DNA of 64,000 nt from Cryobacterium algoricola. GTDB taxonomy: Bacteria > Actinomycetota > Actinomycetes > Actinomycetales > Microbacteriaceae. Under the pieces are notes generated by a model, which was not told where the DNA came from, did no database searches, and saw only the letters and a list, made by a program, of their open reading frames with translations. How positions within the stretch are numbered: the stretch's first letter is position 1; each line of letters starts with the position of its first letter. Shown piece after piece: positions 46,542 through 64,000 of this stretch. Location: the NCBI RefSeq assembly GCF_004402485.1, contig NZ_SOFG01000022.1, positions 1 to 64,000 on the forward strand. Direction: 5' to 3'. The position numbers were made by a program, and so were the translations under genes.

Positions 46542-48083
46542 GTGAACGCGGCCTCAATCGCTCAGACATCCGGTGCCTTCACATATGTCGATCTGTTCGC
46601 GGGCTGCGGCGGCCTCTCATTGGGTTTGAGAAGGGCCGGCGGTACGCACGTAATGGCCGTCGAGAAGTCGCCGATGGCGAGCGAGACGTATTTCAAGAAC
46701 CAACTGAACCGCAGCAATTTTGAGTGGCGAAAGCATCTGGAGCGCGGCGTAACTGAGCAGGGCGCCCACGGTCTGATAGTTGGCACAGTCGAATCCCTAC
46801 TTGATGACGCCGCGACGATGAGCCGGATGGCTCACGCTCAACTCGACCTCGTTGCTGGGGGGCCACCCTGCCAGGGCTTCTCTCTGGCCGGCCGACGCAG
46901 GTCAAGCGATCCACGAAACCAACTTGCCTGGCAGTTTCTTCGCTTCGTTGATGCAACGAACCCGCGTTTCGTCATCATTGAGAACGTCGTCGGCATGCAC
47001 CGCAAGTTCCACGCCACTAGCAGCCAATCTCCATTCGACAGCCTTCGAAAGGCATTGGCGGAACAAGGGACGAAGGGCTATCGCGTGCAGGGCGTACTTG
47101 TCAATGCGAAACACTACGGTGCGCCTCAAAGCCGACCCCGCATGATGCTGATTGGAGTTCGTGAGGACGTGGCGCAAGAACTCGGCGTTGTTCCCTCAAC
47201 ATCCATTCTGGAATCTGGATTCTCCGACGAGTCTCCCTTCGTTGCCAAGTCTCTTCTTCCCCGAGGCCGAGTCATTAGGAACGAAGTCCGCACCGTTGCT
47301 GAGGCGATAGGCGATTTGGACCCTGGCATCGACCACATGGAACGATTGGGGCCGAAAACGGGATACATTGAAGAAATCTCCGATTCAGCTCGCTGGCATC
47401 TCACTGCGGCCGACGTGCGCTCAGACGGGCGAGAGGCCCGACGAGCAAACACTGAGCTTCGGAGCCACCGGCCATCGACTGTTCAACTCTTTCGCCTCTT
47501 GAAGATACTTAAGCGCTATCAGGCTGTGGCCGCAGCGAGGAAAGCGAAGATGGGCGACTTCACCGATGAGGCCTCCGCGCCTCTTCGGGAAATAATGGCC
47601 CGCATCGATTTCCCGGTCAGCTCTCCCGATGGGATTTTGAAAGCCGAGAACGAGGCCGCCTTCTTTCAGCTTATTCGAGACCACTTGACTCTCAAGCACT
47701 CGCAGACGGTACTTGATTGGACTGAACCTTCGCGAACCGTTGTCACGATTCCAGACGACTATATCCATCCGCTACTCCCTCGGACTTTTTCCGTCCGAGA
47801 GCTCGCGCGCCTCCAGGGGTTCCCCGATGCGTTCGAGTTCTACGGCAAAGTGACTACCGGCGGTGAGAGCAGACGAGTCGACGTTCCCCAATATTCTCAG
47901 GTTGGAAATGCGGTTTCACCCTTCGTTGGGACAGCCCTTGGAAGCATGGTTAGCGGGTATGTGAAGAAACTCGCCGTCGGCACGTTTCCTGTTGTCGAAT
48001 CTCCCGACATCGATCCTTTAACGGCTGGACTGCAACCAACGGGAGATGGTGCACCCGAACACCCAAACGCCTATCTTGCGTAG
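46542..48083 (+). CDS. C5-cytosine DNA methyltransferase
   Basis: A 513-residue enzyme with all core motifs in order: I DLFAGCGGLSLGL (about 17-29), IV GGPPCQGFSLAGRR with catalytic Cys (about 106-119), VI ENVVG (about 147), VIII APQSRPRMMLIG (about 194), IX SVRELARLQGFP (about 417) and X QVGNAVSP (about 453). The region between VIII and IX (about 220-400) is a long target-recognition domain. It transfers methyl from S-adenosylmethionine to C5 of cytosine in a specific, unknown site. GTG at 46542 gives a full motif I. It faces the DptFGH-like operon, with dead IS elements between. It could be an orphan enzyme, but proximity suggests it marks self DNA for that operon. Confidence 0.93.
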   Translation: MNAASIAQTSGAFTYVDLFAGCGGLSLGLRRAGGTHVMAVEKSPMASETYFKNQLNRSNFEWRKHLERGVTEQGAHGLIVGTVESLLDDAATMSRMAHAQLDLVAGGPPCQGFSLAGRRRSSDPRNQLAWQFLRFVDATNPRFVIIENVVGMHRKFHATSSQSPFDSLRKALAEQGTKGYRVQGVLVNAKHYGAPQSRPRMMLIGVREDVAQELGVVPSTSILESGFSDESPFVAKSLLPRGRVIRNEVRTVAEAIGDLDPGIDHMERLGPKTGYIEEISDSARWHLTAADVRSDGREARRANTELRSHRPSTVQLFRLLKILKRYQAVAAARKAKMGDFTDEASAPLREIMARIDFPVSSPDGILKAENEAAFFQLIRDHLTLKHSQTVLDWTEPSRTVVTIPDDYIHPLLPRTFSVRELARLQGFPDAFEFYGKVTTGGESRRVDVPQYSQVGNAVSPFVGTALGSMVSGYVKKLAVGTFPVVESPDIDPLTAGLQPTGDGAPEHPNAYLA

Positions 48084-48145
48084 GGCGGGACTGCTGTCGG
48101 TCTAATTGCCTCCTGATTTCTGAGCATTTCGTTTCTCACGTAAGG

Positions 48146-48372
48146 ATGTTCATCGCGCCAAAGGATCTCTCCCTCGACTTCCATCGTGACGTCGTTGCAG
48201 TCGCCCGAAGAACGAGACCCCCTCGCGCGGGTCGCGAAAGACCTCGGGACCTTGGAGTCACGTCTGAACGCTGGCTGAAACTGGCCAATATCGAGGACGG
48301 CAACCGCTCAGGCGCCACTCAGGCCGATGCTGCTGAGCTGCGGGAGGCGAGAGTGAGAACCTGCACCGGCAC
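48146..48372 (+). pseudogene. Remnant of an IS3-family transposase orfA
   Basis: The frame reads DFHRDVVAVARR, then after shifted frames (VAKDLG appears in another frame) TSERWLKLANIEDGNRSGAT and QADAAELREAR. These match the helix-turn-helix protein OrfA of IS3-type elements of actinobacteria. Frameshifts and loss of the C-terminus, and absence of OrfB, show a dead fragment. Confidence 0.75.
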
Positions 48373-48383
48373 CGGGATGCCTC

Positions 48384-48608
48384 GTGTCAGGCGTCGCCCC
48401 GTACCTCCTGAACCGCCGCGCGCACCCAACCTACTCGACCCTCAAGCGTCTAGTGGCCGCGATCGATCGTGATGCGAGGAAGCCGCGGCCGGTAGTCCCG
48501 GCGCCCTCGACCCGCAAACGCGTCAGTCCGTTCGTCTTCCGCGACACCACGCCCGACGTCAATGTTCGCGATGCCTTCCACTACGCACGCAATATGGAAG
48601 GCATTTGA
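48384..48608 (+). pseudogene. C-terminal remnant of IS21-family istA
   Basis: Frame APYLLNRRAHPTYSTLKRLV, then AAIDRDARKPRPVVPAPSTR and VNVRDAFHYARN resembles the extreme C-terminus of IS21-type IstA transposases. Its TGA (48606-48608) overlaps the ATG of the istB remnant, the normal istA/istB junction. The catalytic DDE part is missing. Confidence 0.65.
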
Positions 48609-49420
48609 TGTTCACCAGCCTCGATCGCGTCAAGGTCCGGGCCCTGCCTGTCACGCATGTTGCGACCAGATTGGATGAACTCATACAGGACGAAGCCAGC
48701 GACACCCTCACCCCACGAGCAGCTCTACCTCACAGGCTTCGATGATTCATTTGAGCCCCGGCGCCTCAACAAGGTCGACAACCTCGCCCGTCAGGCCACG
48801 TTCCCGATCCCATACACGACCACGGCGAGATCGACTAACGTGACGGGCACGGCATCACTCTGGTTCGGATACGCCGTAATGCCGCCCACGACTGGAGCTT
48901 CGATCCGACGAACCTGCTGATCGTCTAGCCTGCCGGCGACAGGAAGACAGATCTCGCCTGCGCTCTAGCATTCGGCGCCTGCCAAAGCGAACACTCCGTG
49001 GCCTACCTCCGGATGGGTAACCCCGCCCGTCATCGCCGGAGGCAAAAGCATGGCGCGCCAAAGACTCAACGACCTCTCCAACATCGACCGGCTCCTCATC
49101 TGCGGCTTCTCACCGTCCGCATAGACAGCGATTTCGGCTGCGACCTCTTCGCTATCCTCGCCAATTGCGAAACGGGCTGCTGACGATGATCGCCCCAGTC
49201 CGAACCCATGCACTGGGTTGACGAGCTGCCCGACTGAGTCGCTGCAGACTCGATCGTGAGCCGCCTTTCCAACTATTCCCGAGTCGTCGACCTCGGCCAG
49301 ATCCACATGCGTCGACACCGCAATGACCGAGCCCCCGCCAGAACGATTACTGGGAGGTATCCCCAGCGGCCCCCGCACCCAGCCCGGGTCGCTACCACCT
49401 CGCCAGAACCGCGCCACTAA
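48608..49420 (+). pseudogene. Decayed IS21-family istB ATPase gene
   Basis: Starting at ATG 48608 the pieces appear in order but in several frames: VTHVATRLDELIQDEASDTL, VDNLARQATFPIPYTTTA, GITLVRIRRNAAHDWSFDPT, NLLIV then a stop where the P-loop begins, TDLACAL, SEHSVAYLRMG, DLFAILANCE, and WVDELPDSVAADSIVSRLSN, then YSRVVDLGQIHMRRHR. This is the IstB helper ATPase with at least four frameshifts or stops, so the element is long dead. Confidence 0.8.
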
Positions 49421-49500
49421 CTGCGCGGACCGCCACTACCAACGAGCGCTGCTCGCCAGAGCGCTCGTCTTGCCTAGGTTCGTTCGCGCGGTACCCTCGT

Positions 49501-52500
49501 TCAGCCTTGTTTCGGGCCGTCGTCGTAGCCAGCGTGATGCGTATCGCTCTCCTCGACCAACTTGTAGAACGGTTTTCCCCGGATGAAACTGCCGCTGTAG
49601 CCGAGAGACTTATAGAGGGCTTCATGCGTTTGGAGTCCACCGATCCTTGTACTGGCCGCTACGGGCAATCCGGTAATTCCCAACCGCGTCAATTCGACAT
49701 CGGTGACATTCGGGACCTTATGAATGAACCAAGTCAGCAGAGGTTGCCCATAGTTCTGAGTAGACGTACGAAAATGCGACAAGTACTGAGAGGCAAGCAC
49801 AGTGCCGAAGCCGAACTGACGGCCCTGAAGCATCAGGGACATTAGAACCGGGAATTCATATTCCATTATATTCGTGGCCTCGTCGACCAGGAGGAACGAG
49901 CTGAGCTGCCTGATCTGCGGGTCTGTACCCAGAAACGGAAACTTCTTTGATCGGAGCATGTAGTCGTAGTACATATTCAGAAAGAGAATCACCAAGGCGT
50001 TCTTGGTTTTCTGATCGACGCCCAGACGATCGATTGCAACGACCAAGACTCGGTCGCCAATCAGCGAGTCGAAGTCCAACAACTCGGTCGGATCGTCGCT
50101 GAAGATTTCACCGTAAACAAAAACGTCCAGAATCGCCGTCACCGAGTCAGCCGAGACTTCTGAGCCATAGGCTTCCGCGAGCTGAGCGATAGTGGGCGGT
50201 CGTCCTCCCTGTGAGGCAAAGATGTCCGCGGTCAGTCGCGCAATTCGGGCCTTCTGAATCGGCCCTACTCCACCGTAGATCTTTGAAATTACGTCGGAGA
50301 ACTGTTGCCCCTTCTGAAAGGCCGCCAGTTTTGTATACTCGCCCGACAATGCAAAAACGTTGAGTGGGATCTTGTTAGGCAGGAGGACCTTGGCTCCGAC
50401 GCGCTTGACAAACGTATCTTCCTGATAGTCCCGCTTGTAGTCCAGAATCAAGAAATTTAGTGGGTTCTGTTGCGTGCGCTGCGCATGAAAACGAAGCTCG
50501 GAGACTACCGTCTTCAAGAGTTCAGTCTTTCCAGTACCGAGGTCACCGACTACGCCGATATTCATTTGGTTCAGCGCCGTATTGCCCGGCCAGAAGTCTG
50601 CGCTCGCGGCACCGATTGAATCGATCAGTCGACCCACCGCGAACTTCACCCCTAAAGAGGCTGCTTCATTTGGCACGACTACAACCGAGCTCTTGGACGA
50701 CTCAGTACTCGACTCATCGGTGGAATCAGTATTTGCGGGAGGTCGGGTCGGTACTAGCTCAGCGTTAATACGATCAGGCCCAGAAGGAATACCACGTGTC
50801 GCGAGTGCTTCGCCCCCAGATCGAGGAGAGCCGTGCCTCGCCTCAATCGGCGGCACTGGAGGAACAAGGTCGTTCTGGGGGCCCACGTCAGAGGCTCTCG
50901 ATGACGGTTCGTCGTCTACCTGCATCGCCCATGAGATCAAATCGGCCCACTGGCCAGCCATCTTTGAGTGCGAGCTGCCGATTGAGCCGAAGGTCGTACC
51001 CACATCAGCTATGAGTGCTCCGAAACAATCGAGCCCATCTCGGTTTAGATCCACGTGCGTTTTGAACTTCTCCCCCTCGGTCGTCTCGGCGTTGAATTGG
51101 AAGTAGCTGGCAATTGGCTTGCCGATACGAATTGGGAGCTGACCGTCAACTGCAGCTTGGAGACGGGCCAGCAATCGCCCGGTGGATCGTGCTCCACTTG
51201 GCTGAAGTCGGCTGCCGGCCTCTAGCATTGTCGCCAGCGCGTTATCCCACAGAATGCTGTCGGGGCCTTGGCCGTTTTCGCGAACCAAAGCGGAGTGCGT
51301 CGCCACTCTCTTCAGAAGCGTCTGCGTCGCAGCCAGCTGGGCCACACTCTCCTTTAGGGCTGCACCTTCCGGGCCTGGCAGATGGTCGGTATCGGACGAG
51401 GGCGCACCCATCAACCCGTGCAACTTGATTTCGATCGGCGCAACAGTCACACCGGATTCGTCGACGCGTACGACCAAGAGATCAGCTCGGCGAGTGGACT
51501 CATTTGGTGTAGCACCGCCGGCGAGCCCTCGGAGGAAGGAGTCCGTGGCATCGATGGGCAGTACGAATTGTTCGGCTCCACGGGGATCGATGGTGTCCAT
51601 GAGGGAAAACGCGAGATAGAAGCCAAGTGCTCCAGCCGCGTGGGTGCCGCCAATCGCTAGAAGCGTCGATAACCCAACTCCCCTCGCGCCAAGCTTGGCC
51701 ATAATCGCCATGATCGTCTGATCGTCGACCTCCCCACCGTGTGCCTTCTCTACAAGAATCCGTAGCTGGGCTCGGAAACTATCGGGGATTCTAGCGACCG
51801 ACACGTGGGGACGGCGCTCCAGCACCGGCGTTCCGTCCGACCGGTCCAGGAAGGGTGGTTGCCATTCCCAAAGCATTTGCGACCCAGACCCGGTACTTTC
51901 GATGAGATTTGCGAGGGCACTTGGTCCCATGAGACCTTCACCTGATACGGTCCAGTCGGCAGTGATATCCAGAAGGGCAGTCTGCAATAACTTCGACCGA
52001 AGATGTGGCCTTAGAGAAGCCCCTTCGACGTTAGTTAACGCCGCGGCGAAGGGACCCCACCCGGCGTGGCGATCGACCGCTGGAAGGGAAACCGCATATG
52101 GAGCGTTTGCGACAGGCGCTCCATGTGCTTCAAACCGACGCAGCGGCACGCGCCCCACTACACCCTGGTTAGGACAGGCGCCATTGCCAGCCTCCAGCCG
52201 CACGCCAGAGTCTTGCAAGAGCCTTACGTTGCATGTCTTGGATTGTTCCCCGGGTTTGCGGAGATAGCGGGTCCAGCTGAACGGTATATCTTCAGCCGCA
52301 CGGGCGAGCTTCGTGACTGCCTCTCTTGGCACGTCTCCGACCCTGTCCACAGAGTCCCATACGCGAACACCGCCGCCTAAGCGCTTGACCTTTCCGGCAG
52401 ACCAAGTTTCGACTGCAGTCAGAACGGCCGAATCCACCTCTCTCAATCGCGTCATGGGGTGGGACGCCGCTAGGTCCACTGTCAGAGTGGAAACGTGTGG

Positions 52501-55143
52501 ATGCATGCTCATGTAGCTCTTTAGCGCTGTCGCTGCTGCATTCGAATTCAGTCCACTAACGGCATTCCCAGGGGCAGGGAAACCCCCAATTTGCAGGGGC
52601 GCGCTCAGCGCTTGGTATCCGTTGATGGAGCACTGGACGAGCATGGACCACCCCAAAAAGACTTGACCTTCGCCACTGTCCGTGGGCAGTGCAATCAACC
52701 GACCGTTGTCCGTCTCGCTGGGCCCAATAAATGGGAAATTCCATCCTTCGACCGTCCCCGCAAGGAGCGTCGCAATTCGGGAATGCCACAAGGTGGACTC
52801 TGCCGCCGCCAGCCATGAGAGGCGCAGGGGATGCAGCGGGCTCAGCAGAACGGCCTGACACACTCCAGTCTGGGAGTTCCACGCGCTTACTCCGAATGGA
52901 TAAGTGGCCCAGAACACGCCGTGCGGATCTCCGATTTCCGCTGCCAAGGCCATAAGCGCCGAGTAGGCATTCAGATAGTTTTCCAGCTCGGCCCGACCGT
53001 CATCCCAAAGGTAGCGCCAAGACGTTCGGGACGGCCACTCGTGATTCGTTGATTCGCCGTCGCTGAAGTCCACGCATTGCGCTACTCCAAGCTTGACAAA
53101 CGAGCTTCGAAAGTTGTCCGCTTCCGGTGAATTCAGCAGTGCTTTCGGAACTGCAAATCCTGTGACCAGGCCAATATCTGCAATTGCCGGGTCCATAAGC
53201 ACACCCGACTCGTCGAAACCTATCTGGCCGAATCGAATCTCACGGTCCTCAGGCACGACCACATGCCCCAGTGCCTGAAGCCAGCTCCTCGAAACGACAT
53301 GACCCGCTGCAAGTACCTCGTATTGACCTTGAAGCGATGCAAGAGTGTCCTGAGCCGGAGCCGTGGCAGAGACAGTCTGGTTCTCAATGGCAGCGACAAC
53401 AGGGGAACGAAATAGTCCCGCTGAGCTGGTTGAACTGATCACATAGGACGCGTCGCCGATTGCAAATGAAGAAGATGGTTGAGGCAAGACAGAGACGAGG
53501 TGGATCCGCTCACGAGCCTTCATGAGAGGAGCTGCCACCCCTTCGAACGTCACGCGCTCGCGGCCCGTGGTGGTCCACAACACGACTAGATGCATGGCTT
53601 TGGCGTCGTCAAACGTGCCCACATGTCGATCCTCATCGACATATTCGGCCGTCGACAGATCGTACTTGTCTTGGCCAAGATATGCGGGGCGCCCAATACT
53701 GGACTTACCGATTTTCATGTGAAAGAGACCGCTGCCTACCGGCGGTAGCAATACGACCTCGCACGAGCTCGAAGTGTCAACGACGCCCGCCAGAGAATCT
53801 GCACTATCGAGGACAAACAGCACACGCGACGAGATCACCGCTTTCGTGAAAACGATCTTCCCTAATTCGCGCACGAATCGCCCACGGGCCCAAAGCTTGC
53901 CATCAGCATCAACTTCGAGTGTTCCTTGCCAGGACAACTTGGCCTTGACCAGTCGCACAGTTGCCGCAGAGGCAGTCAGAGCGCTTGGGCTAACGGCCGC
54001 GAGGAGCGGTATCTGAATCCGCACTTCTTCGGAGACCGAGGACGCGCCGACCGACGACTCGCTAACAAATGAGGACTGCAGGATGAACGGACCGAGATGC
54101 GGCTGTCCTCCGGCAGTCAAGTCCTGTCCCTCCGGCCCGAAAATCGACAAGAATCGAGTCTGGGTTTCGCTGCTCAGAGGGTCGAAAAATTGTCTCTCAG
54201 TGAGTTGGGAAAAGGCCTCAAGACCACCGTCGATCTGACCTTCAAGGTGATGGATCATGGCGATGAGCTGATTGCCGTGTGCTGCATTCGTCTGGTCGAA
54301 TCCGGACCATTCGAGTTTCGCTAGGGGATGATTCTGCCCCTTTGGTGTATCGGGATGATGATCAAGCTGTTGAACAGTCATTTCAATCGTCGCCGCACTG
54401 GACCACCACAGCGACAATGCCTCTACAATCGCCTTCCCTGCCGCCTTACCGCCGAGTAGAGAGGTTCCGGCGACCGGAGATGGGAGAGCGAAACACGCGT
54501 AGGTGTACCGCTTGAAGAGGTCATCTAGCGTGAGGGCCGCGCCAAGATACACCTTCGACACTGTCAGATGGGCCAGCAGTTCTAGACCAAGCGCCACATG
54601 ATCGAACCAATACGCATTCCATCCGCGGGCACCCTGTCCTAGTTCCCGATACGCCTCCTGTAACTGACGGAAGCAGGAGGCAAGTCGATCAGCGGCAACT
54701 GATTTGTCGCAGGTTTGGTCGAGAGGCAACCCCGCTGCGGAAATCAGAGTGTCAATCGCCGCGAGCGCCAGCGATCTCAAGGCCGCCTTCTGCCCGTCCC
54801 CGTCCGGATAAGACTCGTTGAGCACGGGTCTATATGCCTGACGGAAGGAAGCAAGATCCGGATTGCGTCCAGTAACAATCGCTAGGCGGTCTGAGTTACG
54901 GTAGGCGATCGCCGTTTGCGATGTCACTCGGATGCACGTCAAATCTCTGGTGTCTTCAACCGGCGCAATGATGATCGCGTACGGCGGATGGGTGGGCCTG
55001 ATCAAATTAGCTGCCTTCGCAATTGCCACGGCAATTTCTTCGCCCGTACCGTCCGGCAAGTAGACCGCGCCCAGCCCATCGGTCTCGGTAAGGCACAAGG
55101 CCAAGGCATGCCCGAGGATCTCCTCGTTCATATATCTCGTCAT
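49501..55143 (-). CDS. Giant DptH-like protein: candidate nuclease motif plus HerA/FtsK-type ATPase
   Basis: 1880 residues. The first about 1150 residues are unrecognised. Near 1218-1242 stands ADLLVVRV-x9-IEIKLHG, the Asp...Glu-x-Lys pattern of PD-(D/E)XK nucleases with the right strand character. A Pro/Ser-rich linker (about 1400-1480) leads to a C-terminal motor of HerA/FtsK type: Walker A GVVGDLGTGKTE (about 1527-1538), FLILDYKRDY, Walker B SSFLLVDEATN (about 1745) and VLASQYLSHF sensor-like region. Size and C-terminal motor match DptH of phosphorothioation restriction, but the assignment rests on layout. ATG 55143 shares a base with the TAA of the preceding gene (TAATG). Third and last gene of the operon. 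Base use is lower-GC than flanking genes. Confidence 0.75.
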   Translation of the reverse strand: MTRYMNEEILGHALALCLTETDGLGAVYLPDGTGEEIAVAIAKAANLIRPTHPPYAIIIAPVEDTRDLTCIRVTSQTAIAYRNSDRLAIVTGRNPDLASFRQAYRPVLNESYPDGDGQKAALRSLALAAIDTLISAAGLPLDQTCDKSVAADRLASCFRQLQEAYRELGQGARGWNAYWFDHVALGLELLAHLTVSKVYLGAALTLDDLFKRYTYACFALPSPVAGTSLLGGKAAGKAIVEALSLWWSSAATIEMTVQQLDHHPDTPKGQNHPLAKLEWSGFDQTNAAHGNQLIAMIHHLEGQIDGGLEAFSQLTERQFFDPLSSETQTRFLSIFGPEGQDLTAGGQPHLGPFILQSSFVSESSVGASSVSEEVRIQIPLLAAVSPSALTASAATVRLVKAKLSWQGTLEVDADGKLWARGRFVRELGKIVFTKAVISSRVLFVLDSADSLAGVVDTSSSCEVVLLPPVGSGLFHMKIGKSSIGRPAYLGQDKYDLSTAEYVDEDRHVGTFDDAKAMHLVVLWTTTGRERVTFEGVAAPLMKARERIHLVSVLPQPSSSFAIGDASYVISSTSSAGLFRSPVVAAIENQTVSATAPAQDTLASLQGQYEVLAAGHVVSRSWLQALGHVVVPEDREIRFGQIGFDESGVLMDPAIADIGLVTGFAVPKALLNSPEADNFRSSFVKLGVAQCVDFSDGESTNHEWPSRTSWRYLWDDGRAELENYLNAYSALMALAAEIGDPHGVFWATYPFGVSAWNSQTGVCQAVLLSPLHPLRLSWLAAAESTLWHSRIATLLAGTVEGWNFPFIGPSETDNGRLIALPTDSGEGQVFLGWSMLVQCSINGYQALSAPLQIGGFPAPGNAVSGLNSNAAATALKSYMSMHPHVSTLTVDLAASHPMTRLREVDSAVLTAVETWSAGKVKRLGGGVRVWDSVDRVGDVPREAVTKLARAAEDIPFSWTRYLRKPGEQSKTCNVRLLQDSGVRLEAGNGACPNQGVVGRVPLRRFEAHGAPVANAPYAVSLPAVDRHAGWGPFAAALTNVEGASLRPHLRSKLLQTALLDITADWTVSGEGLMGPSALANLIESTGSGSQMLWEWQPPFLDRSDGTPVLERRPHVSVARIPDSFRAQLRILVEKAHGGEVDDQTIMAIMAKLGARGVGLSTLLAIGGTHAAGALGFYLAFSLMDTIDPRGAEQFVLPIDATDSFLRGLAGGATPNESTRRADLLVVRVDESGVTVAPIEIKLHGLMGAPSSDTDHLPGPEGAALKESVAQLAATQTLLKRVATHSALVRENGQGPDSILWDNALATMLEAGSRLQPSGARSTGRLLARLQAAVDGQLPIRIGKPIASYFQFNAETTEGEKFKTHVDLNRDGLDCFGALIADVGTTFGSIGSSHSKMAGQWADLISWAMQVDDEPSSRASDVGPQNDLVPPVPPIEARHGSPRSGGEALATRGIPSGPDRINAELVPTRPPANTDSTDESSTESSKSSVVVVPNEAASLGVKFAVGRLIDSIGAASADFWPGNTALNQMNIGVVGDLGTGKTELLKTVVSELRFHAQRTQQNPLNFLILDYKRDYQEDTFVKRVGAKVLLPNKIPLNVFALSGEYTKLAAFQKGQQFSDVISKIYGGVGPIQKARIARLTADIFASQGGRPPTIAQLAEAYGSEVSADSVTAILDVFVYGEIFSDDPTELLDFDSLIGDRVLVVAIDRLGVDQKTKNALVILFLNMYYDYMLRSKKFPFLGTDPQIRQLSSFLLVDEATNIMEYEFPVLMSLMLQGRQFGFGTVLASQYLSHFRTSTQNYGQPLLTWFIHKVPNVTDVELTRLGITGLPVAASTRIGGLQTHEALYKSLGYSGSFIRGKPFYKLVEESDTHHAGYDDGPKQG

Positions 55144-56594
55144 TAGTAAGCGCTCTCCACTCGTACACCCTGATCTGCGTCCGCACTTCCACGGGCCATG
55201 CCTGCGCGTTCCAAGAGAGCCACGAGGTCAGAGAGGTTGGGTCGCATTCCCATCTTTTCCAAGTCCGCCATCACTCGCCCAACGTCCGACGATGCGCCCG
55301 GTGTCACACAAGAGAGACTCGCTACAACAGCGATCCATTCGGTTCCCGGGTCGACTTTCAAATACCGCCCGTTTGATTGAAGGAGCCCGTAGTAGTCGGC
55401 TCTTGATTCACTCGTCTCTCGCGTCTTGAGCGCGTAAGTGATCGCCTCCCAAACGTTCTTCCCCGAACCCACCCGCTCGTTACTGCTCAAGGCCTCAGTC
55501 AGGCTCCTTGCAAACCCCTCGTCGTCGCGCATTTCATCCATAACAGCGCCAAAGTCAGACGCCGCAGCAGAGCAGGCGTCCAATCGATCTGCGATCAACG
55601 ACCTCAATCGTTCGCTCCGGTATACTCGCGCGACCAATTGGGGAGCAACATCCAAGGCGACGGTGCCCGCACGCGACGACCCCCAAGGCAAAACTGTACG
55701 GACCTCACTGCGCACGTCGCCCCAGGAGACGGTTTCTGATTTCAGCACGGCCCGCGCGAATGCCTCATTCCATGAGCACTCCCAGAGGAATCCCAGGCCC
55801 GTGGCCAGACGAAGGACGGTGGTTGCCCAATCTACCCAAACCCGAGCGGGTAGAGCCTCAACCCACTCGTCACTGGTGAGGCGGAGCCAGGCCGAGGCGA
55901 ACCAATCAAACGGCGTTCCCGAATAATCGCCCTCGGGCACGCTTTCCGCAGAGGGTAACCCCGCTGGCAGTGGCGGCGGCTCCACGCGTTGGGAGCCCAA
56001 GATCGTTCGATCAACCGCGGAGTCAAGTGCGTTGAGCAATGGATCAATTTCCATTCGATGCTTCGCTGCTCGCAGCCATAAACGTGAGGCGGTGAGCAAT
56101 TCCGGAGACGTAGACGCACCCAGAGCGAACAAGGATTCAATTATCATCGCCGTGTCGGGAGGCCCCTTGGTTCCGAGTGCTCCTCTCATATTCTGGAGGA
56201 GCGCGATCGAAGGCGTAAGTGGACTGGCCGGCTGGCCTCCACTCTTTTCAATCCTTACGCCATCAAGGCTGTTGAGGACGGCCTCCCCCAGAAGGTCTGA
56301 TCCTCCTTCTATTTGCAACCCCGCCTTTTCCAACGCGTCGACGAATTCGACAAGTCGAATCCCGGTGGGAAGCGTCTGTTTCATTTTGATTAGTCGGCTG
56401 GTTCCACCATTTGTCCGAAAGAGCAGCCCAATCGGCTTACCAGCAATGTCCTTGACCATAGGTATTTCTGATGAATTATCCGTCGAGTTCTCTAGACGGT
56501 CCACATGGAGAATCTTCCAGGCCAACGCTGAGATAAAGGCTTCGGGAACGGCGACGTACTGGGGCCGCGGTAGCGACATAGAAATTCTCGACAT
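55143..56594 (-). CDS. DptG-like protein of unknown fold
   Basis: A 483-residue soluble protein with no motif I can name. It is mostly helical; WVDWATTVLRLATGLGFLWE (about 255-275) is the most conserved-looking stretch, and the C-terminal about 90 residues (SRADYYGLLQSNGRYLKVDP, VMADLEKMGMRPNLSDLVAL, LERAGMA) look like a winged helix. Middle gene of the three-gene operon: ATG 56594 abuts the TAG of the ATPase gene and its TAA overlaps the giant gene start. Position and size match DptG, the bridging subunit in DptFGH systems. Homology is inferred from context only. Confidence 0.6.
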   Translation of the reverse strand: MSRISMSLPRPQYVAVPEAFISALAWKILHVDRLENSTDNSSEIPMVKDIAGKPIGLLFRTNGGTSRLIKMKQTLPTGIRLVEFVDALEKAGLQIEGGSDLLGEAVLNSLDGVRIEKSGGQPASPLTPSIALLQNMRGALGTKGPPDTAMIIESLFALGASTSPELLTASRLWLRAAKHRMEIDPLLNALDSAVDRTILGSQRVEPPPLPAGLPSAESVPEGDYSGTPFDWFASAWLRLTSDEWVEALPARVWVDWATTVLRLATGLGFLWECSWNEAFARAVLKSETVSWGDVRSEVRTVLPWGSSRAGTVALDVAPQLVARVYRSERLRSLIADRLDACSAAASDFGAVMDEMRDDEGFARSLTEALSSNERVGSGKNVWEAITYALKTRETSESRADYYGLLQSNGRYLKVDPGTEWIAVVASLSCVTPGASSDVGRVMADLEKMGMRPNLSDLVALLERAGMARGSADADQGVRVESAY

Positions 56595-58610
56595 CTAGAA
56601 CGCCTCCCCAACGCTGAGCACCTCGTCAGTGAGGCCAACCACGACTCGATACCGTTGAGTATCCATCTGCTTCCCGGGTACCAACCTTGCAGCCCGGAAC
56701 CTCTCGAGACGTGGCGATGTGATGTCAGAGAGTTCCGTAACACCGGCATACCCCTCTCCACATGCGAGGGCCTCACGAACAAGCGGGAAATCCAACAAAA
56801 CGCGTCGAATTTCCTTTCCGCTTTCCTTTAGCCGGAGAAATAAAGACTCCGAGTCACGTGAGGTCTCCATTTCGATGGAACTTGTGCGGAGAGCGAGAAT
56901 AGGACGGCTCTCTCCTGTAATTGGACTCGTCCTGCTGTCAAAAATAGGGATGAGTGACGCTCCATCCGTAGCGCCATGAACCCGCGCAGGCTTCAGCAGC
57001 GTCAGAAGCTGCGATTCCAACGTTCCCGGGATCTTGGGCGACAGAGCCCATGCGTTTGTCCAAATCTCAATTTCGCGTCTGAAAGCAGGTATACCGTTTG
57101 CGGTTGCGTACAAGCGCATGAGATAGCCGCTGTACCAAATCACGACTTCGGACCGTTGTTTCAGCTCCGAACAAGCGAGAGCCGCTACAAAAGCTTCGTC
57201 CAGACCGCGATCAAACGCTCCCACACAGTCCCGAAACGGGTCCTCTGGGCTGAGAGAGAGCATCAGCGCGTCCAGAGGAGAGCCATGGCCGGCTTCACTG
57301 GCAAATGCGTCAAAAAGAGGGGTGGCCCATCCATCTGAGGTCGGAGAGTTAGTGCCGGGAAGTGCATCACGGACCGGATCGACGAGACGAGTCAACCGGA
57401 GGACGGGATTCTGAAGGGCTTCGTCCTTTTGATCGGTTCCATCGCCGATCCCAAATATTGACTGGGTGTATCGAAAGGCCGCCAATGCACGGAGTTCAGC
57501 GAACCTTGCTAACGCTCGGGGCTGTACAGGTTGGGATGACTCTAGGAAATTCTCGATGTCAGCGCCTGCTATCTGGGCTGGCAGATCTCCAACCAGTGCC
57601 CTCACTAGGGCACCCCAAACCTCTCGGTAGGTCATCCTCTGGGAGGAGACTATCTCGGAGGCACGAAGCACCGAGAGAAAACCACTTAGAACGGCGTCTG
57701 AAGATAAGGAATCAAGATTGGCTTGAAATGGATTCAGAAAAGCCGGATCTCGCTCTTCGCTGTCGACTTGTAAGGCTTTGACTACGCCGGCGACGAGCTC
57801 CCCAGCAGGGAACTTGCGGGGATCTGAATCGCGACGCCTGTGGAATCTGGCGATGCGATACGACTCCCCGTTCACGCTTGGACCTACCGAGCTGAGCTGT
57901 GAAACGGTGGCGCTCGGAGATTCTTCGAACAGAGAACACACGTCCACGAACACGACCAATACATCAGCAAGATGTGCACCGGCGCTAAAGAGGCGCCCCG
58001 ATCGCAAATAGTCGGTCTTAGTTTCGTTAGTTCGAACTTCCCACCCTGAGGGGCATTCAGGTGCCTTCAAGTTGTCCTCGCGAAGTAGCCAATCGATTAC
58101 CGCCCCCTGCGGGCCATCTGACTCCCTCCCCAGAAGGGGGAAAACCGCCGACTCATCCACGAGGATCCCCCTATTTACACAGGCGAAGAAGTGTGTTTGA
58201 TCTCTGGTCGCCGTATCAATGTCTCGACCCAGTGCGCCGCGCGAGTGCAGACGGTCCCCTATTGTCGCGTCATTGACGACGGTCAGGGGACGCGTAGGCG
58301 TCTCATATCTATAGGTTCGGTGTGCCAGCCCATCCTTCAACGGCGATTGCTCCTCCAGATCGGAGACCACATAGGCTGCAGCATGAGATTTTCCAGCGCC
58401 TGGCCCACCCACGAGGTAGAGCATTCGGGGCTGCGTGGACGTCTTGAGTCCCTCTCGAAACCAATCGAGGCCCGCCTGCATGCCCGCAGGACGCGGCGCA
58501 ACAGCCCAGACTGAGCTCCGCAGATCTGGCTGGGCCGCGACGTCTCCCCCTCCCGTGGCTTGGCCCCATAGATCGCGCAGACCAGGCTTGAATACGTTCG
58601 TCAGTTCCAA
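56595..58610 (-). CDS. DptF-like P-loop ATPase
   Basis: A 671-residue ATPase. Walker A VGGPGAGKSHAA is at about 67-78, after a 45-residue N-terminal segment (LRDLWGQATGGGDVAAQPD). THFFACVNRGIL (about 142-153) and LADVLVVFVDVCSLFEES (about 207-224, Walker B-like) fit a STAND/AAA-like ATPase of the DptF/PglY kind. The C-terminal half is helical, ending with a small mixed domain. TTG at 58610 is taken as the start: an in-frame TGA lies seven codons upstream and GGGGGA precedes it by 6 bases; ATG 58478 is a later alternative that would still keep the P-loop. First gene of the operon and likely its regulatory ATPase. Confidence 0.7.
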   Translation of the reverse strand: MELTNVFKPGLRDLWGQATGGGDVAAQPDLRSSVWAVAPRPAGMQAGLDWFREGLKTSTQPRMLYLVGGPGAGKSHAAAYVVSDLEEQSPLKDGLAHRTYRYETPTRPLTVVNDATIGDRLHSRGALGRDIDTATRDQTHFFACVNRGILVDESAVFPLLGRESDGPQGAVIDWLLREDNLKAPECPSGWEVRTNETKTDYLRSGRLFSAGAHLADVLVVFVDVCSLFEESPSATVSQLSSVGPSVNGESYRIARFHRRRDSDPRKFPAGELVAGVVKALQVDSEERDPAFLNPFQANLDSLSSDAVLSGFLSVLRASEIVSSQRMTYREVWGALVRALVGDLPAQIAGADIENFLESSQPVQPRALARFAELRALAAFRYTQSIFGIGDGTDQKDEALQNPVLRLTRLVDPVRDALPGTNSPTSDGWATPLFDAFASEAGHGSPLDALMLSLSPEDPFRDCVGAFDRGLDEAFVAALACSELKQRSEVVIWYSGYLMRLYATANGIPAFRREIEIWTNAWALSPKIPGTLESQLLTLLKPARVHGATDGASLIPIFDSRTSPITGESRPILALRTSSIEMETSRDSESLFLRLKESGKEIRRVLLDFPLVREALACGEGYAGVTELSDITSPRLERFRAARLVPGKQMDTQRYRVVVGLTDEVLSVGEAF

Positions 58611-59295
58611 CAGTGTTCCCCCACGTCAGTAGAAAATTCAGACAAGCCGCACTGGAATTCAGCGTATCGCGGTTAACTGTCTCCACGCCGCACGTAAGCA
58701 GCCGCATTGCCGCTATCAATACCGCCTTCGACTTGGCCGAAAATGGTGTCGCTCCCACCCACCGCCCACGACCGTCAAGAGGCACCGCCGCTGCGCAAAC
58801 GACGACGCGAATGTCCCCGTCGATTGCGGGATGAACCTTGCCAACCGGAAATCTAACCAGGGTGTTGGAAGTCGGGTTGGGACCCCGCCCGGCCGAAATC
58901 ACGTTAGTGGACAGGCGACAGTGAATCTCGGGGCATTCTGGAAGGCCGGGACACCCCCACGTTTGCTGACGCTGACGGCTGCGTCCGCAGGCCGACGACA
59001 GGGTCACTGCCAATGCACCCAGATGTTCATGCGGCACCGGCTTACGAAGAGACTCAAAACGTAATTCGACCAATCGGTTCGGATCGAGCGACCCGCCGAC
59101 GAGGTGTTCACCCCACCCGGCCGGATTCCAGAAAACGGCGGCCTTTCCTGACTCGCCCGTCGCTGCCATGACCCCGACCGGGATGATCTGGGCTGGGTTA
59201 TGTCGGAGGCGCATCTTAGAATCGGGGGCAGCGCTTCGACGTGATCCGGCGGCTGTCCGGGTCGCCGTGACATGTCGCCGCACGAAGGGGAATCC
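58611..59295. other. Gap between the DptF-like gene and the DUF4011 gene
   Basis: About 685 bp separating divergent genes, so it holds both promoters. On the minus strand an open frame runs from ATG 59169 to a stop at 58309 (286 codons), overlapping the DptF-like gene by 302 bp. Its first 200 codons contain a cysteine cluster (WGCPGLPECPEIHC) but match no family I know. I do not call it as a gene. G+C changes from island-like to host-like near 59270. Confidence 0.5.
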
Positions 59296-62200
59296 GTGGA
59301 CCAGATTGACTCTGAGACCGAGACCGACGGCGTTGCTGCCGCGGCCGTGACCGCAGGTGCCCCAGTTGCCGCAGCAGCGGCATCCGCCCGCATCGGGATC
59401 AGCTCGGTACCGTTCCTCTCCTATGCGATGGCGCACTGCCGGGTGCCGGTCGTCGACGAGATTGTGATCGAGAACCTCGGCGGCGAGCAGCGCGCTGCGA
59501 CCCTCGAGGTCGAGGTCACAAGCGCCGCCGGGTCGCTCGGCGCCCCGCAGGTGGTCATCGTCGACCTCGGCGCGGGGCAGAGCACCACCCTGCGCACGGT
59601 CGAGCTCGTGCTCGACCCGGCGCTCATGCTCGCCGTCGAGGAGCAGCGGCCGGGCTCGATCCGCGCCACCCTGCGCGACGCCGCCGGCACCCTGCTCGCC
59701 GAGACGAGCGCGGCCGTGCAGATCCTCGCGTCCAGCCAGTGGATCGCCACTCCCCTGCACCTCGGCCTCGAACTCCTCGCCGCGCACGTGCAGCCCAACG
59801 CCGCCGCCATCGCGCCGCTGCTCGTCGAGGCGAGCGACTTGCTGCAGCAGCGCACGGGCGACTCCGCGCTCAGCGGGTACCAGTCCGAGAGCCCCGAGCG
59901 GGTCGACGCCACGGTCGAGGCGATCTTCGACGCGATGCGCGCCCGGGACATCCGTTACGCGGTCGGCCCGGCGAGCTGGGGCACCAGCGGGCAGAAGGTG
60001 CGCACGCCCGCCGAGGTGCTCGAGGGCCGGCTCGGCACCTGCCTCGACACCACCGTCACCCTCGCCGCCGCCCTCGAACAGGCCGGCCTCAACTCCACGC
60101 TCTGGCTGCTCGAGGGGCACATCTTCCTCGGCTACTGGCGGGTCAACTCGGCGCTCGGCGCGGTCGCCCACACGGATGTCGCCGACATCGTCAACCTCGT
60201 CGACCTCGGTTCGATCGGGCTCATTGAAACGACCGGTGCCACGGGCGGGTCGACCTCGATGCCGTTCGCCGAAGCGCGGCGGAGCCCGCACACGCAGTAC
60301 CTTGCCGCGGGACTGGAGAAGTTCCTGGGCGTGACCGACGTGCGCACCGCCCGGCAGTCGCGGATCTGGCCGCTGCCGAGCCGCTCGGTCGGGTCCGACG
60401 GCGCGGTCACGGTGACGGTGTACCAGGCGGGCGCCGGGCCGGTGATTGCTCCGTACTATGCGCGGGGCGGGGCCGACGGGTCTGGGGCTTCGACCGCTCC
60501 CGAGGCGACCCCGGTGCCGCCGCGGGTTACCCAGTGGAAGAACGCGCTGCTCGACCTGAGCCTGCGTAACAAGCTGATCAACTACACCGACCGCTCCGGC
60601 TACCCGCTTTTCGTGCCCGGCCCGGCCGTCGCCCGCCTCGAGGACGCCATCAACGCCGGCACCCCGATCACCCTCGTGCCCAGCGACGCGGTGCCGAACG
60701 TGGACCGGGCCCGGGGCATCCGCTTCGGGAAGGATCTGCCGGAACAGACCCGCGAGCTGATGCTCGCCGACAAGAAGGGCGCGTTCGTGGACATCACGGA
60801 GGCGTCGTACACGAGCAAGCTGCGCTACCTCGCCAACAAGGCTCGCACGATCGTGGAGGAGACCGGCGCGAATAACCTCTACCTCACCTTCGGGATGCTG
60901 CACTGGCGCTTCAACGACCGCGAGCTGCGGTCGCCGCTCGTGCTGATCCCGGTGAACATGACGAGCGCGAGCCGCGGCTCCTCGTACCGGCTGACGATCG
61001 ACGAGGCCGGGGCGTCCACGCCGAACTACTGCCTGCTCGAGAAGCTGCGGGCGAGCTTCGGGCTGGAGATCGCCGGGCTCGCGACCCCCGGGGAGGATGC
61101 CTCGGGCATCGACCTCGGCGCAGCCTTCACCGCGGTGCGCGAGGCGATCGCGGCGGCCGGGCTGCCGTTCCGGGTCGAGGAGACCGTGGAGCTGTCCATT
61201 CTGCAGTTCGTGAAGTTCCGGCTCTGGAAGGATCTCGACGAGAACTGGGAGGCCCTGTCGCAGAACAGCCTCGTCGCACACCTGATCAACACGCCACTGG
61301 ATGCCTATGCCGACCCGGTCGCCGCGGCCGGCGCCGGCGGGGGTGGGGCGTGGAGCCTGGCCCAGCCGGCCGAGTCCCCGACGGCTCCCGCCTCGGGCGT
61401 TCCGTCCGTGGACCTCGACGCGCTCGGCGGCTCGGTGCCGGTGCCGGCGGACTCCTCCCAGCTCGAGGCGGTGGCCGAGGCCACGGCCGGCCGCACCTTC
61501 GTGCTCGAAGGCCCGCCCGGAACCGGCAAGTCGCAGACCATCACCAACCTGCTCGCCCGCGCCCTCGCCGACGGCAAGCGGGTGCTCTTCGTCGCCGAGA
61601 AGCGCGCCGCCCTCGACGTCGTGAAGAAACGCCTCGAAAGCGTCGGACTCGGCGACTTCTCCCTCGACCTGCACGACAAGGCCGCTCGGCCCGCCGCCGT
61701 GCGCGCCCAGATCAAGGCGGCCCTCGAGCTGCGCATCGACCCCGACCTGCCCGCCCTCGCCGCGAACCGCGAGGCCGCCGCCGCCAGCCGTGGCACCCTC
61801 GCCCGCTACGCCGACCGGCTGCACGAGGCCAACGCGGCCGGCCTCTCCCTCTACTCCGCCCGCACCCACGCCCTCGCCGCGGACGCCTCGGTCGAGCCGC
61901 TCGCCATCCCCGGCCCGCTCGTGGGCGGCTCCCCCGCCCCCGTGTTCGACGAGCTCCGGCACGTGCTGCGTCAGTTGCCTGAAGTGTCCGACCTGGCCCG
62001 CCCGAGCGCCGCGCACCCCTGGGGCTTCGTCGACGAACGACTCGGGCGCGGCGCCGGTGCGGGATCGGCGTCGGCCGAGTCCGCCGCCGAGGCGGTGCGG
62101 GCCGCCCGAGCGGTCGGCACGGTGTCCGTTGGGGCGACCTACGCGGGTACGGCCTCCACCGGGACCTCCGACGCCGGGGCCAGTGTCGGTGCCAATACTG

Positions 62201-64000
62201 CCGCGTCCCTGGCCGCAGGCTCGTCGCCGTCGACCGGCATCGCGATCGCGCTGCGCACGGCCGCGATCCACGCGGCCGGGCGCTCCTTCGACGACGCCCT
62301 CGTGGCGGCGCAGGCCGCCGGCTTCGACCTCGACACCCTGAACCGGATGCCCTCGGCCGCCCTCGCCGGGGAATGGCGCGACCTCGCCGCCGCACCCCGG
62401 CATTCCGTCAGCGCGGTCGACACCCTGCACACCGCCGAGTGGCGCGCGTTCATCGCCGGCCTCGAGAAGCACCTCGCGGCGCTGCGGGCGTCGCGTCCGG
62501 ACTGGCTGACCCGGGTCGCGCCGACCGTGCTCGACCGTGATGTGCCCGGGATCCACGCGGCGGCCCTCGACGCAGACGCCGCCGGGTTCTTCGGCCGCAA
62601 GAAGAAGCGCCGCGCGGTGCTCGCGCAGATCGCCGACGCACTCACCGGCGACGCGGCATCCGTGCCAGAGAAGGCCGTGCCGCTCAAGATGCTCTCCACC
62701 CTGACCGCGGCCCTCGCCGCCGCGCACGCCGAGGCGCAGGGGCTGCGCGAGGCCGCGCTCACCCTGCCGGTGCCGCTCGTCGACGCGCGGTGGAACCCGT
62801 TCGTCGCGTCCGACGCCGAGGACCTCGCCACCGGTCTGGCCTGGCTCGGCTGGCTGGGCGACGCGCTCAACCGGCCCGCTCCCGCGGCTGCCGCAGCAGA
62901 CTCCCCCACCCACACCGCCGACCTACGCGCCTACTACGCCTCCACCCCGCTCGGCGAGGGCCAGGAGCCGCTCACGGACCTCGCCGCGGCCTGGCAAACC
63001 CTCGACACCGCCGCCGACGTGCAGCCCGCCGACCGCGCCCGCTGGGCCGGCGAGCTCGGCTTCGTGTCCCGCTGGTGGGCGACCCGGGCCGCCCGCTCGG
63101 TCGATTCCGCCCAACCGGTCGTGCTCGAACGCTGGCTCGCCCTCGTGCGGCACCTCGAGCCGCTCCGCCGGCACGGACTCACCGACGCCCGCGCAGCACT
63201 GCTGGCCGGCAGCATCCCGGCCGAGGACGCCGCGCTCGCCTTCGACAGGGGCCTCGCCCTCGCCTCGATCACCGAACGCGAAGACGCCACCGCCCTCGGC
63301 GACTTCAACCTCGTGGCGCACAGCAAGACCATCACCCGGTTCACGGCGAGCACCCGTGCGGTGCGCGGCGAACTCCCCCGGGCGATCCCGGCCGAGGTGC
63401 TCGGGCTCCGCCGCTTCGACACGAACCTCGCCTCCGGGCAGGTCGGTGGCCTGCGCCGCCAGCTCGACCGGCAGCGCGGTGGTATGAGCGTGCGCGCCCT
63501 GCTCGAGAACTACGGCGAGCTGATCACCCAGGTGATGCCGTGCACCCTGATGAGCCCGGAATCCGTGGCCCGGTTCTTCCCCGCATCCGCGGCCCTGTTC
63601 GACATCGTGGTGTTCGACGAGGCCTCGCAGATCCGGGTGGCGGATGCGATCGGGGCGATGGGCCGGGCGGCGTCCGTGGTCGTGGTGGGCGACAGCAAGC
63701 AGATGCCGCCGACGAGCTTCGCCGAGGTGAGCGCGAACATCGACGACGAGGACGCCGGCCTCGACGGCCTCGGTACCGACGGTGTGCTCGGCGCCGTCGC
63801 GGACGAGGAGTCGATCCTCACCGAGTGCGTGCAGGCGCGGGTGCCCAGCAAGTGGCTCTCGTGGCACTACCGCAGCCAGGACGAGTCGCTCATCGCGTTC
63901 AGCAACCACTACTACTACGAGAGCCGGCTGTCGTCGTTCCCGGCGCCCGCTGCCAGCGTACTCAGCGACCACGGCGTCTCCCTCGTGCGGGTGGACGGCC
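59296..64000 (+). CDS. DUF4011 / SF1 (UPF1-like) helicase, 5' part
   Basis: At least 1568 residues, running off the right edge. Order: an N-terminal immunoglobulin-like region (about 30-150: VDEIVIENLGGEQRAATLEV); a transglutaminase-like domain (about 215-300: EVLEGRLGTCLDTTVTLAAA, then LEGHIFLGYW); the DUF4011 core (from about 412: WKNALLDLSLRNKLINYTDR); and a superfamily 1 helicase with Walker A LEGPPGTGKSQTIT (about 737-750) and Walker B VVFDEASQI (about 1439), then VVVGDSKQMPPTS and SWHYRSQDESLIAFSN. GTG 59296 follows GAAGGGGA; ATG 59272 in the same frame is weaker. Such proteins commonly continue into a Vsr-like nuclease and DUF3320, which would lie outside. A nucleic-acid-processing or defence role is likely. 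Host-like G+C. Confidence 0.87.
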   Translation, partial: MDQIDSETETDGVAAAAVTAGAPVAAAAASARIGISSVPFLSYAMAHCRVPVVDEIVIENLGGEQRAATLEVEVTSAAGSLGAPQVVIVDLGAGQSTTLRTVELVLDPALMLAVEEQRPGSIRATLRDAAGTLLAETSAAVQILASSQWIATPLHLGLELLAAHVQPNAAAIAPLLVEASDLLQQRTGDSALSGYQSESPERVDATVEAIFDAMRARDIRYAVGPASWGTSGQKVRTPAEVLEGRLGTCLDTTVTLAAALEQAGLNSTLWLLEGHIFLGYWRVNSALGAVAHTDVADIVNLVDLGSIGLIETTGATGGSTSMPFAEARRSPHTQYLAAGLEKFLGVTDVRTARQSRIWPLPSRSVGSDGAVTVTVYQAGAGPVIAPYYARGGADGSGASTAPEATPVPPRVTQWKNALLDLSLRNKLINYTDRSGYPLFVPGPAVARLEDAINAGTPITLVPSDAVPNVDRARGIRFGKDLPEQTRELMLADKKGAFVDITEASYTSKLRYLANKARTIVEETGANNLYLTFGMLHWRFNDRELRSPLVLIPVNMTSASRGSSYRLTIDEAGASTPNYCLLEKLRASFGLEIAGLATPGEDASGIDLGAAFTAVREAIAAAGLPFRVEETVELSILQFVKFRLWKDLDENWEALSQNSLVAHLINTPLDAYADPVAAAGAGGGGAWSLAQPAESPTAPASGVPSVDLDALGGSVPVPADSSQLEAVAEATAGRTFVLEGPPGTGKSQTITNLLARALADGKRVLFVAEKRAALDVVKKRLESVGLGDFSLDLHDKAARPAAVRAQIKAALELRIDPDLPALAANREAAAASRGTLARYADRLHEANAAGLSLYSARTHALAADASVEPLAIPGPLVGGSPAPVFDELRHVLRQLPEVSDLARPSAAHPWGFVDERLGRGAGAGSASAESAAEAVRAARAVGTVSVGATYAGTASTGTSDAGASVGANTAASLAAGSSPSTGIAIALRTAAIHAAGRSFDDALVAAQAAGFDLDTLNRMPSAALAGEWRDLAAAPRHSVSAVDTLHTAEWRAFIAGLEKHLAALRASRPDWLTRVAPTVLDRDVPGIHAAALDADAAGFFGRKKKRRAVLAQIADALTGDAASVPEKAVPLKMLSTLTAALAAAHAEAQGLREAALTLPVPLVDARWNPFVASDAEDLATGLAWLGWLGDALNRPAPAAAAADSPTHTADLRAYYASTPLGEGQEPLTDLAAAWQTLDTAADVQPADRARWAGELGFVSRWWATRAARSVDSAQPVVLERWLALVRHLEPLRRHGLTDARAALLAGSIPAEDAALAFDRGLALASITEREDATALGDFNLVAHSKTITRFTASTRAVRGELPRAIPAEVLGLRRFDTNLASGQVGGLRRQLDRQRGGMSVRALLENYGELITQVMPCTLMSPESVARFFPASAALFDIVVFDEASQIRVADAIGAMGRAASVVVVGDSKQMPPTSFAEVSANIDDEDAGLDGLGTDGVLGAVADEESILTECVQARVPSKWLSWHYRSQDESLIAFSNHYYYESRLSSFPAPAASVLSDHGVSLVRVDG

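Follow-up and report, generated by a model that had tools for sequence, protein, structure and literature searches.

How the DndFGH and SspFGH complexes, studied as phosphorothioate-dependent restriction, tell marked from unmarked DNA is unsettled, and a recent analysis has made the case that DndFGH functions with no modification module built into it (PMC10853773, section 25). The window, the whole 64,000-nucleotide stretch of DNA analysed here, raises the question of what a related three-gene operon does beside a DNA (cytosine-5)-methyltransferase (MTase). The locus was interpreted as a probable restriction-modification system whose F-G-H restriction complex belongs to a third branch, with the host protected by the MTase. 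This reading builds on observed gene content, linkage, folds, conserved active sites and the lack of phosphorothioate genes.

The window locus and its subunits

Features are listed in Table 1. The initial annotation had described a coupled minus-strand trio and, on the opposite strand, a complete m5C MTase. Both descriptions stood: the ORFs were recovered at the coordinates in the table, and the MTase matched PF00145 (1.5e-51) with the tested catalytic motifs intact. In the ORF list G and H overlap by one base, F directly abuts G and the start codon of F is TTG. The MTase is convergent with the F-G-H operon, 1.4 kb away. Neither ORF of more than 100 aa in the gap gave a Pfam match, and no Vsr remnant was found there. 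GC content was about 0.55-0.60 over the MTase/F-G-H block versus 0.65-0.75 in the rest of the window, which fits the expectation for an acquired island. The block is adjoined by a long helicase gene from 59272 onward (DUF4011; PADLOC PDC-S37, 2.3e-161; Hhe, 1.9e-79), which suggests a defence island.

Table 1. Positions of the locus features in the window
Feature	Position	Strand	Remarks
MTase: DNA (cytosine-5)-methyltransferase	46542..48083	+	513 aa; PF00145 match
Gap between convergent MTase and H	48084..49500	.	two ORFs >100 aa
H subunit	49501..55143	-	1880 aa; large DndH/SspH-type protein
H residues 1499-1862, HerA/FtsK motor	49558..50649	-	Walker A GDLGTGKT, Walker B LLVDEA, Q1786
H residues 1221-1240, PD-(D/E)XK nuclease residues	51424..51483	-	D1221, E1238, K1240
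H residues about 841-1121, methyltransferase-like Rossmann fold	51781..52623	-	probably inactive
G subunit	55143..56594	-	483 aa; predicted fold matches DndG structure 7EXX
F subunit	56595..58610	-	671 aa; P-loop NTPase, SspF/DndF-like

Window F has an intact Walker A and the motifs GGPGAGKS, VNDAT and VNRG together with conserved Arg motifs. Across the family GGPGxGK(S/T), DA, NRG, R325 and R329 were conserved in 55/55 sequences. The features given for F in DndFGH and SspFGH (Walker A, Asn replacing the Walker B Asp, an acidic residue after strand 2 and a lid Arg; PMC10853773, section 20) were all found in F of the window family, the residues being assigned from sequence alone. By profile comparison F matched SspF (probability 92.8, E 3.9e-7) and, over the P-loop region, DndF (43.2, E 2.5e-4). 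These hhalign values, and those below, refer to one template each and to small reference alignments of 3-5 Dnd or Ssp sequences; cross-comparisons of unlike subunits reached at most 4.5.

G is predicted to adopt the DndG fold, its modelled structure matching 7EXX, a solved structure. Sequence profiles did not tie it to DndG or SspG, and a Foldseek search with the predicted structure gave no match under E 0.001. The same search with the modelled part of H also gave none under E 0.001. The structure inputs comprised 40 of the 41 picked G rows (A2) and 38 of the 40 picked H rows (A3). The PADLOC SspF and SspG models did not report window F and G at E 1, nor, at E 0.01, F of L002 and L003 or G of L002 and L012.

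In H a methyltransferase-like domain is followed by the PD-(D/E)XK nuclease and then by the HerA/FtsK motor. The nuclease residues were identical in 58/58 sequences, and throughout the family the catalytic residues were conserved; the methyltransferase-like fold is probably inactive. The C-terminal domain matched the PADLOC DndH model (2.5e-52) and the solved DptH C-terminus 7ES4 (5.8e-39). In profile comparison the motor was of DptH type (100) rather than SspH type (5.6), and the methyltransferase-like/nuclease half matched SspH (95.6, E 1.1e-8, 445 columns). Against DptH, again with small alignments, the N-terminal part as a whole scored 45.3 (E 2.2e-4) and the middle 62.0 (E 7.5e-5). The N-terminal third gave no match in these alignments (0.2 for H_1 against D_1; 0.1 against SspH); known relatives carry SF2-like, HTH, beta-sandwich and TRD domains there.

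The resemblance to DptFGH-type proteins proposed in the initial annotation is thus clear by sequence for the HerA part of H, and was found by profile comparison for F and the nuclease of H and by predicted structure for G. As a label, DptFGH-like suits the motor, which alone is strongly DptH-like; in alignments of 3-5 sequences, SspFGH scored higher than DndFGH for both F and the nuclease half of H. The NCBIfam equivalogs for DptF, DptG and DptH (TIGR03238/03236/03237) matched no protein of the window or of L002, and all three matched the L007 controls.

Recurrence of the operon with the methyltransferase

Loci were collected by H alone. Searches of plasmids gave 14 records, and searches of 396 genomes of the window's phylum gave two with a match, including its own. 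A pattern scan of 84,980 species genomes gave 57 loci, a lower bound blind to remote branches, since two peptide patterns of H were used. Together with four plasmid loci (L002, L003, L004, L006), L008 and the window, this made 63 loci. A complete trio was not recognised in eight. Three lie on contigs of 3.9-6.7 kb (L020, L026, L060), two begin inside H (L054, L062), one has H in two frames (L046), one is an acidobacterial variant (L064), and L008 proved complete when extended as L086.

The order F-G-H was present in the window and 55 further trios. An m5C MTase lay within 2 kb in 56/56 recognised complete trios (55/55 plus L086), a count to be read with the fact that the query alignment and the four seeds for each F, G and MTase profile all came from MTase-linked loci, and that the F and G profiles miss L064, the locus without an MTase. 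Nor are the loci independent: 51 of 54 remain at more than 5% H difference, and L018 and L019 are near copies. The occurrence of homologous F, G, H and MTase genes together in dozens of species places the operon beyond chance. The recurrent adjacency that the initial annotation had proposed to look for was found in all recognised complete trios, with no Dnd gene found nearby. Neither of the two outcomes named there as refuting the proposal was seen.

The usual gene order was MTase-F-G-H-Vsr on one strand, with the MTase upstream of F, on the same strand and within 190 bp, in 47/55 trios. Vsr, which the initial annotation had not taken into account, lay within 3 kb in 43/56 complete trios, though it was not found in the window's own genome. 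The MTase of L063 is in two frames, as is the Vsr of L047.

The MTase motifs PPCQ, ENV, QxRxR and NAV were invariant in 54/54 aligned family members, the family alignments taking the single best-scoring MTase per locus, and activity on DNA would be expected from these intact motifs. By PADLOC the window MTase scored best as generic MTase_II and lower as DruM and DrmMII. It was the only PF00145 match in the window genome. The linked MTase was the sole match in 8 of the 10 genomes with a complete trio that were searched; the others had a second full match (G782, carrying L053) or a further weak one (G421, carrying L037; 28.7 bits, cut-off 22).

Hosts were mostly Pseudomonadota, and the Actinomycetota formed a well-supported group with the window in the tree. 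Identical motor domains occurred in Bordetella, Solimonas and Ramlibacter, a sign of recent transfer. In the HerA tree a 61-row group with support 99/98 held all these loci and three acidobacterial rows. Long branches meet in this tree, the acidobacterial rows have weak support inside the group, and the label 'mtase_linked' takes in L020, L026, L046 and L062, whose MTase could not be seen. Judged from the sequence, the locus neighbours also include genes resembling AbiE, ArdC and histidine kinase/response-regulator genes.

The nature and role of the proposed mark

With profiles from L007, none of DndB, DndC, DndD and DndE was found in the loci. Host genomes (49/52) and 3/4 plasmids were searched for DndC and SspC. 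DndC was over the cut-off in one of the 49 genomes and in none of the three plasmids; below it stood G423, at E 1.4e-37, and G431, weak at 2.9e-4. SspC was clear in 0/49, with two marginal matches in host genomes (E 8.5e-6 and 3.3e-4). Two Dnd control records and two Ssp controls matched. An F-G-H complex using a phosphorothioate mark from unlinked genes, with the MTase serving another purpose, could draw on the one genome with DndC over the cut-off, on G423 and on G431; with DndC below the cut-off in 48/49, SspC clear in none and neither matched in the window's own genome, we regard it as extremely improbable. Judged by linked or unlinked DndC or SspC, the branch does not belong to phosphorothioate defence (Dnd or Ssp).

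The histories of the genes bear on whether the MTase and F-G-H work together. Divergence of F, G and H correlated mutually (Spearman 0.90-0.95; 0.83-0.93 within proteobacteria), and MTase against F-G-H divergence gave about 0.61 (0.48-0.50 within proteobacteria). L053, L055 and L037 carry a distant MTase whose target-recognition part is 10-14% identical to the usual type of a relative; their F-G-H is like that of the relatives, with no matching exchanged block. In L037 the copy upstream of F is a remnant of the usual type, and the intact, distant MTase lies at 386 bp. With one motif read by both halves, exchange of this kind would not be expected. Barring a motif common to the replacements, it suggests that the complex is not tied to a single recognition sequence.

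In L064 most of the length of H is related (E 2.1e-297), an F-like protein fused to DruA and a G-like protein accompany it, and no m5C MTase was found on the contig. Counting it in, linkage is 56/57. The pairing is therefore a property of the branch recognised here and not of everything with this motor.

Moderate agreement of histories, MTases exchanged while F-G-H stayed, and L064 without a linked MTase would all suit a standalone counter-invader F-G-H accompanied by an MTase that, whether or not Vsr is present, forms a co-travelling epigenetic unit of its own. Rakesh et al. 2024 put forward such a standalone model for DndFGH, and section 25 of PMC10853773 argues for it. It is nevertheless unlikely for this branch. 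Linkage holds in 56/56 recognised trios, mostly over tens of bases and on the same strand, and the linked MTase is the sole PF00145 match in 8/10 genomes. The MTase profile gave no match in nine Dnd/Ssp control loci (DndFGH: L005, L007, L070, L072, L074, L085; SspFGH: L082-L084). An MTase that is replaceable yet missing from none of 56 trios has the pattern of a protective partner.

In the restriction-modification reading, methylation would be the protecting mark, DNA cleavage the response, and defence against phages or plasmids the likely benefit. The MTase would put 5-methylcytosine on host DNA. F-G-H would assemble, and its HerA motor would drive movement along DNA. The mark may be sensed via G, whose predicted fold is DndG-like, and via the methyltransferase-like part of H, both contacting DNA; the PD-ExK nuclease of H would then nick or cut DNA without the mark. 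F would bind nucleotide and act as a nucleotide-dependent switch, probably licensing the attack. Where present, Vsr would repair T:G mismatches from deaminated 5-methylcytosine and so limit the mutational cost. The steps from mark to cleavage are those we infer.

SspFGH is described as damaging unmodified DNA and as toxic without its modification, all three genes being needed (PMC8092258), and loss of dptBCDE as inducing the SOS response when dptFGH is present (PMC12707154). Such harm to cells lacking the mark, a resident active MTase that would mark host DNA, and Vsr in 43/56 loci, which suggests lasting methylation of the host, count against the mark as a trigger. On that type IV-like logic F-G-H would attack 5-methylcytosine DNA, and the MTase would tag invaders or serve a suicide response. 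Sensing of a modification can be activating, as PMC8092258 reports for SspE, and we still consider a trigger quite improbable here.

Several points weigh against the proposed protective mechanism: a window genome without Vsr, a convergent window MTase, a window F listed with a TTG start, the weaker co-divergence of the MTase, exchange without F-G-H change, L064, and a G unlinked by sequence profiles. PMC12707154 also reports that restriction was not lost completely on single deletion of dndF, G or H, and that for DndFGH doubts have been raised over whether the two halves evolved in a matched way. More tentatively, F-G-H might be a general restriction chassis licensed by chemically unrelated marks (backbone sulphur or base methyl), with the m5C branch reading 5-methylcytosine loosely, by its density or its context, rather than matching one recognition sequence site by site. 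MTases could then be interchanged without F-G-H change even when their target domains are dissimilar. We regard this extension as possible and rather doubtful.

A sister branch that brings its own m5C module offers a direct handle on self/non-self discrimination, as its mark is easily mapped and its MTase easily deleted or mutated. The natural MTase exchanges are ready-made tests of self versus non-self recognition by the complex. If true, the protective reading would also account for some m5C MTases that occur with Vsr and look solitary in rhizobia, sphingomonads, pseudomonads and actinobacteria.

Comparison with known systems

As the initial annotation had held, the locus is distinct from DISARM and BREX: PADLOC reported no DrmA/B/C or BrxC/PglZ for F, G and H. 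Nor did it report Druantia (DruE-type) for them. A full MADS mad operon was not found; the HerA part of H matched mad8 (6.3e-11), F and G matched no mad model, and none was among the best 25 of 63 PADLOC rows for the MTase.

Type II m5C restriction-modification with Vsr shares the linked m5C MTase and Vsr, as do known VSP repair units such as dcm-vsr and those of Neisseria (PMC12907096). It differs in that no type II endonuclease was recognised here, the restriction half being a three-protein P-loop/HerA complex. An endonuclease and MTase strictly sharing a recognition sequence appear disfavoured by the MTase exchanges without F-G-H change. CxC/DndD ABC ATPase-DndE systems likewise have a cytosine methylase in place of phosphorothioation, and they are centred on a modification-side ABC ATPase, DndE and HKD nuclease-helicases, not on F-G-H (PMC10853773). 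In that paper 'cytosine' is mentioned ten times, in seven places, none tying a methylase to DndFGH. Searches of the main text of open-licence PMC articles found, among the papers listed, no description of an m5C-linked F-G-H system; the supplementary DndFGH lists of PMC10853773 may include the branch without naming it.

DndABCDE-DndFGH (Dpt) shares the HerA domain (7ES4, PADLOC DndH), the predicted G fold (7EXX), the P-loop profile match of F and the nuclease-then-motor order in H; in the window branch no DndBCDE lies nearby and an m5C MTase replaces the sulphur-modification module. SspABCD-SspFGH shares the three-gene order and sizes (606-635, 509-545 and 1801-1824 aa in L082 and L083), the match of F to SspF and that of the methyltransferase-like/nuclease half of H to SspH. 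The window branch differs in lacking SspC, in having an m5C MTase and often Vsr instead, and in its DptH-type HerA motor. What appears new here is a third way of pairing the F-G-H complex: the presumed mark sits on a base rather than on the backbone, and most loci also have a repair enzyme for it.

Helicase gene adjoining the operon

The F-G-H restriction operon of the window is adjoined by a gene for a DUF4011 helicase, which was read in the genome, beyond the window, as a frame of 2144 residues. The first 500 residues were matched in only 4 of 40 sampled genomes of the family, its own genome being counted, and the gene was therefore considered a further candidate defence gene next to the operon.

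Features at the window and at the compared loci
Feature	Record	Position	Strand	Remarks
DUF4011 helicase	window	59272-63999, continuing beyond window end	+	PADLOC PDC-S37/Hhe-like
Methyltransferase replacement traces	L037	1-1953
Methyltransferase replacement traces	L056	1-1953
Separate 164-aa gene	L003	7758-8252		Pseudoalteromonas; between G and H
F-G-H relative	L064	1334-11200		acidobacterial
DptH-type HerA motor	L071	7111-10047		conjugative plasmid
DptH-type HerA motor	L073	7132-10143		conjugative plasmid

Variation among F-G-H loci

The H protein of L003 is shorter (1623 aa). When compared by profile, the product of the separate gene at this locus weakly matches the H proteins of other loci, which suggests that it is an N-terminal part of H, split off.

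At L037 the usual m5C methyltransferase is left as a remnant adjoining F, with a different methyltransferase upstream; at L056 the usual enzyme is intact and lies beside an end of the other type seen in L037.

Genes read from sequence as histidine-kinase-like ATPase and response-regulator-like co-occur within approximately 3 kb of the operon in six loci (L016, L024, L030, L034, L041 and L056).

Further relatives and HerA motors

The H proteins of the window and of L064 are related across most of the length of H. No m5C methyltransferase was linked to the L064 locus. Its F-like protein carries an N-terminal DruA (DUF4338) domain (PADLOC DruA, 3.2e-126) and also matches PADLOC SspF (5.1e-10). 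The plasmid motor genes of L071 and L073 directly follow mobI and encode proteins of approximately 1000 aa; in the HerA motor tree these motors were placed near those of DptH.
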